From contig NZ_CP025815.1 of the NCBI RefSeq assembly GCF_003352045.1, positions 186,001 to 250,000 of the forward strand: DNA of 64,000 nt. The letters run 5' to 3'. A program made the translations under genes and the position numbers. The number at the start of each line of letters is the position of its first letter. Position 1 is the stretch's first letter. Below, piece by piece: positions 5,697 through 19,959 of the stretch. The notes below the pieces were generated by a model, which made no database searches, was not told where the DNA came from, and saw only the letters and a list, made by a program, of their open reading frames with translations. This stretch comes from Sulfitobacter sp. JL08. GTDB lineage: Bacteria; Pseudomonadota; Alphaproteobacteria; Rhodobacterales; Rhodobacteraceae.

Positions 5697-6329
5697 ATGG
5701 CTATTGCATTTGCAGACATCGCGTTCACCCCATCCGTCCTGCGCACTCAGGAACAGAACGGATCTGGTCGCTATGCCGGGTTCCTGTCCGAAACACGCAG
5801 TGGCGGCGACCGGTTGGGCGAAGGCGAACGCGCCTTTATCGAGGCGCGCGACGGCTTTTATCAGGCCACTGCTTCCTCGACCGGCTGGCCTTATGTCCAG
5901 TTCCGCGGCGGACCGGCGGGGTTTGTCAGGGTTCTTGATGACCAGACGATTGCCTATGCGGACCTGCGCGGGAACCGTCAGTATATTTCGACAGGAAACC
6001 TGTCTGACAACGATCGTGTTTCCCTGATCCTGATGGATTACCCGAACGCCCGGCGGCTCAAGATTTGGGGGCGGGCGGAAATCACCAACATGGACGCAGA
6101 CGCCTTTGATCTCGCACCCGCCGGCACGCCCGCCGAACGGCTGGTTAAGATCAGCGTCAAGGCGTTTGACTGGAACTGCCCCCAACACATCCCCCGCCGC
6201 TTCACAAGCGAAGAGGCAGGCGACGAGATCGCGGCATTGCGCCGCGAAAACGAGGCCCTCAGGGCCGAAACCAGTGCTCTGCGCCGCTCTGTTCTGCGGT
6301 CAGAGTCCCCGCTGCCCAAAAGCCGCTGA
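5697..6329 (+). CDS. Pyridoxamine 5'-phosphate oxidase-like flavin/F420-type split-barrel protein
   Basis: A 210-residue protein with a PNPOx-like split barrel in residues about 25-170 (IEARDGFYQATASSTGWPYVQFRGGP, LDDQTIAYADLRGNRQY, LIWGRAE-like strand). Members of this broad family bind FMN or F420 and reduce or oxidise small molecules; few are true PNP oxidases. The segment FDWNCPQHIPRRFT is typical of the subgroup. The C-terminal 35 residues form a short coiled coil (EEAGDEIAALRRENEALRAE), suggesting dimer or partner binding. It is the second gene of the TetR-controlled set. The start is ATG 5697 after AAGGAATAAACC. Confidence 0.8.
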   Translation: MAIAFADIAFTPSVLRTQEQNGSGRYAGFLSETRSGGDRLGEGERAFIEARDGFYQATASSTGWPYVQFRGGPAGFVRVLDDQTIAYADLRGNRQYISTGNLSDNDRVSLILMDYPNARRLKIWGRAEITNMDADAFDLAPAGTPAERLVKISVKAFDWNCPQHIPRRFTSEEAGDEIAALRRENEALRAETSALRRSVLRSESPLPKSR

Positions 6330-17892: not shown

Positions 17893-19959
17893 ATGAACGA
17901 GCGCGTCGCGCTCTTATATCTAGGCTGTACCCTGTTTCTGGCGCTGGCCGTGTGGTGGTACCGCGGCAGACGGGGGTCTTTCATAAGCTTTCTGTTGCCG
18001 GCGCGGGTGTATCTGCACCGGTCAAACCTGCTGGACATAAAGCTGTTTTTCACCTTTCGCGCGATCGGCTTCTTCGGATTGATGAGCAAGGTATTCTTTC
18101 CGGCAACGGTTGCGTTTTACGTTCTGTCATGGCTTTCCGGCCCGTCCGCCGATGGCTTTTTGGCCCCGCCCACAGGTTGGACGCGCAGCCTGCTGGCGAC
18201 ACTGATCATCGTTGTCGCCTCGGATTTCTGCAAATACTGGGCGCACCGGCTGCACCATGAATGGAAGGTGCTTTGGCCGTTCCATGCGGTGCATCATTCG
18301 GCCGATGTGCTGACCCCGCTGACGGTTCACCGAACCCATCCGATTGAACCGGTCATCCGCAACCTGCTGATCACAGTCATCGTCGGGATCGTGCAGGGCG
18401 TGATGCTGTTTGCGCTGATCGGACAGATCGACATCGTAACGCTGGGTGGCGCCAATGCGATGTATGTGCTGTTTAATATGCTGGGGGCCAACCTGCGCCA
18501 CAGCCATATCTGGCTGAGCTACGGGCGGGTGATGGAACATATCTTTATTTCGCCGGCGCAACATCAGGTGCACCATTCGGTCGCGGTGGAACACATCGAC
18601 AAGAACTACGGGTCTATATTCGCGATCTGGGACTGGATGTTCGGCACGCTTTATGTGCCCGAAAAGGTCGAGGAGATCACCTATGGCGTGTCCGACGGTA
18701 AGGGCAACCCGATCGCACAGCCCTATACCACCCTGCGCGAGGCGCTGTTGAAACCGTTTCGCGAAAGCTGGGAGGCGATTGACAAACAGCGCGCGGCGCG
18801 CGCGCGGGCGCGTGCGAAATTGCCGCCGGCGGTCATGTCACAGGGGTTTTCCATCTGGTTGGATGCCCTGCGCGCCGGGGCTGCGCTGACCGTGCTTTTC
18901 GGCCACATGGCCCATATCCGATTCACCCGCGGGGATTATTTTGTGCTGCGCGAACTGAACGTCGCCAGCGATGCGGTGATCGTTTTCTTCGTGCTGTCCG
19001 GTGTGGTGATCGCTTATGCAGCCACGCGCGACGCCACGCTGGAACGGTTTGCGTTCAATCGTATGACGCGGCTGTGGTCGGTCGTGGTCCCGGCGCTTGC
19101 ACTGACGCTGATCTTTGATGCCATTGGCACGCGGATAAACCCCGAAGCCTATCCGGAGACGTTCTATAACCCTGTTTCCCTGTCCGAAATGGTGCTGCGC
19201 GGGCTGACATTTACCAGCGAATGGCAGGGGATCTGGGATCGGGTACGGCTGGGCACAAACGGCCCGCTCTGGTCGCTGAGTTACGAAGTCGGGTTTTACA
19301 TGCTTTTCGGCGTTGCGTTGTTCCTTAGGGGGGCGCTGCGCTGGGTGTTGCTGGCGCTGCTGGTCGGTGTGCCGATACTGGCGCTGCTGCCGGCATGGCT
19401 GATGGGGGTTCTGGTCTGGCACACGGTGCGCCTGTCACCGGATGCGCCCACACATTCCGGCAAAGACTGGGCGCGCGCGATCCTGGGTATTGCCATGCTG
19501 GTGGTGCTGAAATTGGCAGGCCTGCCTGCGGCGCTGAGCGAAATAACGGCGCAGGCGTTTGCGCCTTACAGCCATCATGCCGTTCTGGCATATTCCGACG
19601 AAGTGTTGTGGAACACGGTCATCGCAGTGGGTGTTGCCTTGCATCTGGCAGGTGTCAAAAACATCGCCGACCGTCGCGCTCCCCGCCCGGAAGGCCGCGC
19701 AACAGGCGCCATCCGCTGGGTCGCCGGAGCAAGCTTTTCCATCTACGTGATGCACTATCCAACGCTGCATCTGCTGGACGCCACTTTGCCGGAAAATCTG
19801 CCCGCCTATGATCTGTGGCTGCTGACGCTGACACTGCTGGTTTGTTTCGGATTTGCCAGCCTGTTCGAACGCCCGCTGAAACGGTTTCGCGCACTGGTGG
19901 AACCGATGTGGAAAATGGCGGGGGCCCCGTTTGTGGCCCCGCGCTCGTCTACGCCGTGA
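17893..19959 (+). CDS. Fusion of sterol desaturase/fatty-acid hydroxylase with acyltransferase-3
   Basis: A 688-residue integral membrane protein with two enzymes in one chain. Residues about 1-310 are a di-iron membrane hydroxylase: the histidine clusters HRLHHE, HAVHHS, and HQVHHS (with HSHIW between) are in the usual order. A short basic linker (KQRAARARARAKLPP, about 298-312) leads to an acyltransferase-3 domain (about 318-680) that begins FSIWLDALRAGAALTVLFGHM, has VFFVLSGVVIAY, and holds about ten membrane segments. The first half could hydroxylate a lipid and the second could acylate a hydroxyl, perhaps the same one. The start codon ATG 17893 has a weak ribosome site. No frameshift is seen at the join, so this is a true fusion. 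Confidence 0.85.
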   Translation: MNERVALLYLGCTLFLALAVWWYRGRRGSFISFLLPARVYLHRSNLLDIKLFFTFRAIGFFGLMSKVFFPATVAFYVLSWLSGPSADGFLAPPTGWTRSLLATLIIVVASDFCKYWAHRLHHEWKVLWPFHAVHHSADVLTPLTVHRTHPIEPVIRNLLITVIVGIVQGVMLFALIGQIDIVTLGGANAMYVLFNMLGANLRHSHIWLSYGRVMEHIFISPAQHQVHHSVAVEHIDKNYGSIFAIWDWMFGTLYVPEKVEEITYGVSDGKGNPIAQPYTTLREALLKPFRESWEAIDKQRAARARARAKLPPAVMSQGFSIWLDALRAGAALTVLFGHMAHIRFTRGDYFVLRELNVASDAVIVFFVLSGVVIAYAATRDATLERFAFNRMTRLWSVVVPALALTLIFDAIGTRINPEAYPETFYNPVSLSEMVLRGLTFTSEWQGIWDRVRLGTNGPLWSLSYEVGFYMLFGVALFLRGALRWVLLALLVGVPILALLPAWLMGVLVWHTVRLSPDAPTHSGKDWARAILGIAMLVVLKLAGLPAALSEITAQAFAPYSHHAVLAYSDEVLWNTVIAVGVALHLAGVKNIADRRAPRPEGRATGAIRWVAGASFSIYVMHYPTLHLLDATLPENLPAYDLWLLTLTLLVCFGFASLFERPLKRFRALVEPMWKMAGAPFVAPRSSTP

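Follow-up and report, generated by a model that had tools for sequence, protein, structure and literature searches.

A single-frame gene joining an FA_hydroxylase-type oxygenase to an acyltransferase-3 domain in Sulfitobacter sp. JL08, and its gene-pair relatives

The window analyzed here is a 64,000-nucleotide stretch of the Sulfitobacter sp. JL08 genome (contig NZ_CP025815.1, positions 186,001 to 250,000), and one of its open reading frames appears to encode two membrane enzymes in a single chain. The initial annotation described this frame as a natural fusion of a lipid hydroxylase and an O-acyltransferase, and it raises the questions of whether the fusion is genuine, how it arose, and what a protein of this composition might do. 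The features, given as positions in the window, are as follows.

17893-19959, + strand: fused gene for an FA_hydroxylase-type oxygenase and an acyltransferase-3 (AT3) domain; 688 aa, ATG start, TGA stop.
17893-18792, + strand: N-terminal hydroxylase part (residues 1-300), recognized from the Pfam match, invariant histidine clusters and phmmer over 100 relatives.
18793-18834, + strand: linker rich in Arg, Ala and Lys (residues 301-314), with neither length nor sequence conserved, predicted to be cytoplasmic.
18835-18837, + strand: ATG codon (Met315) at the position at which free-standing AT3 genes begin in relatives; Met in 12 of 12 fusions.
18835-19956, + strand: C-terminal AT3 part (residues 315-688), recognized by Pfam, TmAT/AT3 motifs and about 10 membrane helices in AlphaFold models.

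Domains and motifs of the fused protein

No internal stop codon interrupts the 688-aa frame at 17893-19959. Its N-terminal part matches Pfam FA_hydroxylase (PF04116) over residues 104-252 (18202-18648; E 3.8e-25; 89.3 bits against a cut-off of 31), and its C-terminal part matches Acyl_transf_3 (PF01757) over residues 321-654 (18853-19854; E 1.1e-22; 81.0 bits against a cut-off of 31). The second match covers model positions 2-324 of 326, so that the AT3 domain is essentially complete, as the initial annotation had it. The short Arg/Ala linker noted there is also present, as AARARARAKLPP (residues 301-312, approximately 18793-18828), directly after residue 300. A further AT3 domain lies elsewhere in the window at 1126-2082, within a 640-aa open frame.

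All of the histidine clusters expected of such a hydroxylase were likewise claimed to lie in the frame, and each of them (H118xxxH122, H131xxH134H135, H149, H203/H205 and H224xxH227H228) is at least 97% conserved over 101 hydroxylase relatives. Conservation in the AT3 part was counted on its own alignment, separately from the alignment (A1) on which the full-length model is based and in which the first AT3 helix is misplaced in many of the separate-AT3 rows. Among 42 AT3 relatives R327-x10-H338, the RxxR at 390-393 and the FFxxSG stretch of TMH2 are 100% conserved, and F365/F366, G370, W460, E465, Y618, H621 and E659 are also invariant. In OafB and other AT3 enzymes, R/K-x10-H (TMH1) and RxxR (TMH3) are reported to be essential (PMC9833829), and the fused protein also contains the DxxR, FxxxxG and SxxxY motifs of the TmAT superfamily (PMC12423673).

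Comparison with five other fused genes reveals that differences at third codon positions are about 2-3 times those at second positions in both domains, whereas codon positions in the linker are saturated, with no purifying selection there. These patterns show purifying selection acting on both domains and, at the level of sequence, both halves look functional.

The full-length AlphaFold2 model is confident, with a mean pLDDT of 91.4 and a pTM of 0.75; the AT3 part contains about 10 membrane helices both in this model and when modeled alone, a number in line with AT3 enzymes, and at the junction a helix (281-308) is followed by a loop (309-316). Sequence searches of the PDB with the whole protein and with a hydroxylase profile gave no match, and those with an AT3 profile gave only weak, meaningless ones. 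Foldseek searches with both models returned no solved structure at E < 0.001; HGSNAT, a TmAT protein, is the sole plausible enzyme among the weak matches (probability 0.4-0.8, E not below 0.001).

Fused and paired forms among relatives

A scan of GTDB r220 with one genome per species yielded 52 related loci. All loci gathered comprise 12 fusions (the window included), 31 pairs of separate neighboring genes, one broken copy and 59 loci in which no AT3 of this kind is detectable beside the hydroxylase. The fused form is found in the isolates Marivita geojedonensis, Roseovarius tolerans DSM 11457 and Antarcticimicrobium luteum, and the paired form in Shimia sagamensis DSM 29734 and Thalassococcus halodurans DSM 26915; gene pairs are also present in Hyphomonas, Hellea, Endozoicomonas and one gammaproteobacterial MAG. 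Phage and plasmid collections contain only distant single-domain relatives.

These loci bear directly on whether the fusion is a sequencing or assembly artefact, or the decaying read-through of two separate genes. Two observations lean that way: the closest homologue, in Roseobacter sp. WL0113 (locus L043; 72%), has a frame broken by three single-base deletions (at 6182, 6778 and 7842) that could be either decay or sequencing error, and in loci L004 and L042 both genes lie in the same frame with a single stop separating them. However, a further 11 fusions are intact and come from assemblies separate from this one, and both domains are under purifying selection; an artefact is rejected for the window. 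In particular, an assembly join or missed stop near 18830, with homologues existing solely as separate genes, had been named as the outcome that would overturn the fusion, and it is ruled out because the fusion recurs in these 11 independent loci.

The order is hydroxylase then AT3 in all 31 pairs, and the junctions are tight. With automatic start choice, 14 pairs have a 4-base ATGA-type overlap, five have a 1-base overlap, and in the others the genes lie 1-16 bases apart; reading by eye adds a further ATGA overlap (L005), so that approximately 20 of the 31 pairs have ATGA- or TAATG-type overlaps. Comparison of the loci shows that the fusion arose from two translationally coupled genes. The methionine at the ancestral AT3 start is retained in every fusion although the surrounding linker is unconserved, and an internal start at Met315 giving rise to a free AT3 protein would explain this; Shine-Dalgarno pairing upstream of Met315 is not clearly above background.

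Several observations show that the two genes have evolved together. Patristic distances for the hydroxylase and AT3 halves are correlated at r = 0.91 (43 rows), and when one genome for each genus of the window's family (298 in all) was surveyed with the AT3 profile at E <= 1e-50, the AT3 subfamily was found in 15 genomes and in all 15 lies beside or is fused to this hydroxylase group. Four distant genomes of the phylum, in contrast, contain AT3 relatives but not the hydroxylase, and sister hydroxylases manage without this AT3; both facts count against two steps in one modification. In a concatenated tree the fusions constitute a nested group with full support that encloses one pair-form member (L005), and the test does not reject a tree in which all fusions form one clade (p-AU 0.07); the phylogeny would thus allow either one fusion and one fission or a few fusions. 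The best reading of these sequence comparisons is that the two parts of the system were joined into one chain within a single roseobacter lineage.

The neighborhood of the genes is less informative. In the window, the fused gene has ordinary neighbors: it is preceded on the same strand by a RidA-type gene and by dgcN/dgcA, the D-glutamate genes, and is followed on the opposite strand by a DUF1244 gene and N-formylglutamate amidohydrolase-type genes. Among the 48 regions in which a conserved gene context was sought, no neighbor beyond the pair itself is common outside close relatives, synteny extends only to the genus level, and the context points to no substrate.

Topology and the possible reaction

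Since both enzymes are encoded in relatives by adjacent, tightly coupled genes, the hydroxylation and acylation steps very probably belong to one lipid-modifying pathway that is not yet characterized. The explanation we favor, and consider probable, is that the fused protein is a two-domain inner-membrane enzyme that performs, on a membrane lipid or some other hydrophobic molecule, two steps of a single modification. In the N-terminal domain, a histidine-bound di-iron center would use O2 and electrons to hydroxylate the lipid at the cytoplasmic face of the membrane. The C-terminal AT3 domain would bind cytoplasmic acyl-CoA via DxxR and R-x10-H (TMH1) and RxxR (TMH3), and would pass the acyl group on to an oxygen atom of that molecule, which could be the new hydroxyl or a headgroup hydroxyl. 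We infer both activities, this order of steps and a substrate common to the two.

A more specific scenario, the one put forward in the initial annotation, is strict tandem chemistry, in which the AT3 domain esterifies the exact hydroxyl made by the oxygenase to give an acyloxy lipid. The substrates named there, an ornithine lipid, hopanoid, carotenoid or lipid A, are hypothetical candidates. A hydroxyl-forming enzyme beside an O-acyltransferase suggests this as the simplest biochemical logic, the obligate pairing and fusion of the two enzymes agree with it, and two candidate OlsB-type genes (PF13444) in the genome could provide an aminolipid substrate, making such a substrate possible. The difficulty is one of topology. 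The iron site of the FA_hydroxylase superfamily faces the cytoplasm. AT3/TmAT enzymes, in contrast, are generally modeled as taking acyl-CoA from the cytoplasm and handing its acyl moiety to an acceptor outside the cytoplasm (PMC9833829, PMC12423673). With active sites expected on opposite faces, action of both domains on one hydroxyl would require the substrate to flip across or span the membrane, and this topology weakens the idea that the same hydroxyl is made and then acylated. Strict tandem chemistry, with the acyl group landing on the newly made hydroxyl as we infer, is therefore possible but somewhat doubtful. The related idea that, in roseobacters and some few proteobacteria besides, one polypeptide hydroxylates a membrane lipid with a di-iron oxygenase and O-acylates its own new hydroxyl to make an undescribed acyloxy lipid is tentative and rather unlikely. 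The fusion itself is nonetheless topologically sound because a cytoplasmic location is expected at the linker both for the N-terminus of an AT3 domain and for the C-terminus of a hydroxylase, as judged from the AlphaFold model and earlier descriptions (PMC7448272, PMC9833829).

The two domains could instead act independently of each other on separate parts of one surface molecule, for example with the hydroxylase modifying a lipid anchor at its headgroup or acyl chain and the AT3 domain O-acylating its sugar outside, or they could have no more in common than their regulation and location. Most of the known AT3 acceptors are carbohydrates (PMC9558356), which speaks for this reading and against the favored one, and 13 of 27 AT3 members are weakly similar to MdoC, a periplasmic-glucan enzyme. 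However, no glycan biosynthesis gene is common to the loci, and co-regulation alone hardly accounts for exclusive pairing and fusion, such that we regard independent modification as unlikely, if not negligibly so.

For the favored explanation of two steps in one modification, the fusion and the exclusive pairing link the two enzymes to a single pathway, and turn the generic annotations 'sterol desaturase family' and 'acyltransferase family' into one prediction, namely that marine roseobacters contain a lipid that is both hydroxylated and acylated. Unusual roseobacter lipids are under active study, and culturable carriers of both the fused and the paired form make the prediction directly testable. 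If true, AT3 acceptors would reach beyond the mostly carbohydrate ones reviewed to date.

Comparison with known systems

Both enzyme families are known, but the combination of hydroxylase and AT3 appears to be undescribed. The AT3 forms that have been described are stand-alone, SGNH-fused or NRF-fused (PMC9558356, PMC7448272, PMC12423673), and no mention of a hydroxylase-AT3 fusion, or of such a gene pair, was found in the open-licence literature searched. The suggestion that no enzyme with this order of domains had been described thus encountered no counter-example in that literature, reviews of AT3 architecture included.

OlsE (NF052566) shares the FA_hydroxylase superfamily and the histidine clusters with the fused protein and hydroxylates a membrane lipid, and the fused enzyme could accordingly be imagined as an OlsE-type ornithine-lipid headgroup hydroxylase whose acyltransferase yields an O-acylated hydroxy-ornithine lipid or roseobacter aminolipid. 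OlsE is the sole curated family that all 50 hydroxylase members match, and roseobacters produce ornithine, glutamine and sulfur aminolipids and have a noted OlsE homologue with no assigned substrate (PMC11631085). The OlsE equivalog is also the only NCBIfam match of the fused protein; however, the score of about 70 bits (67.9 / 70.2) compares with a required 475, and by this measure the fused enzyme is not a member. Moreover, another hydroxylase of this genome (L002) is nearer to OlsE, at 97 bits, so that an OlsE-type role is improbable. The OlsE model also has no acyltransferase partner.

With the AT3 O-acyltransferases (PF01757; OafA/OafB, Oac and MdoC) the fused protein shares DxxR, R-x10-H, FxxxxG, RxxR, SxxxY and about 10 predicted membrane helices. 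It differs in having an N-terminal oxygenase in place of the C-terminal SGNH domain common among them or the eukaryotic N-terminal NRF domain (the chain ends at residue 688, and Pfam finds no SGNH domain in it), and in a substrate that is probably lipid-like. Ornithine-lipid synthesis by OlsBA or OlsF resembles the proposed pathway in that an acyloxy(acyl) aminolipid is made in two steps, but the acyltransferase families are unrelated to AT3 and the hydroxyl derives from a 3-hydroxy fatty acid without an oxygenase (PMC12493201, PMC3972451).

Related hydroxylases also occur in other arrangements. In L054 (5929-8657) a close relative of the paired hydroxylases is followed directly, with an overlap of four bases, by a gene whose product has a DCC1-like domain and a weak HTTM membrane domain, possibly a swap of partner, and the AT3 gene is absent there as it is from the similar loci L057, L059, L062, L085 and L086. 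In a Chromatiales MAG (L063, 2795-4794) a related hydroxylase is followed, again with an overlap of four bases, by a membrane glycosyltransferase-like gene in the place of AT3, and in L089 (418-2529, - strand) FA_hydroxylase and SBP_bac_6, a bacterial extracellular solute-binding protein, share one 704-aa frame that reflects either a fusion or a lost stop. Fusions to a creatininase-family domain (PF02633) are seen in L027 (1414-3294), L028 (703-2496, - strand) and L094 (1288-3150), and are Pfam-confirmed in L027 and L094. These resemble the fusion in the window in joining a related hydroxylase to a C-terminal partner, but the partner is a hydrolase domain rather than an acyltransferase, and they occupy a separate branch of the tree.
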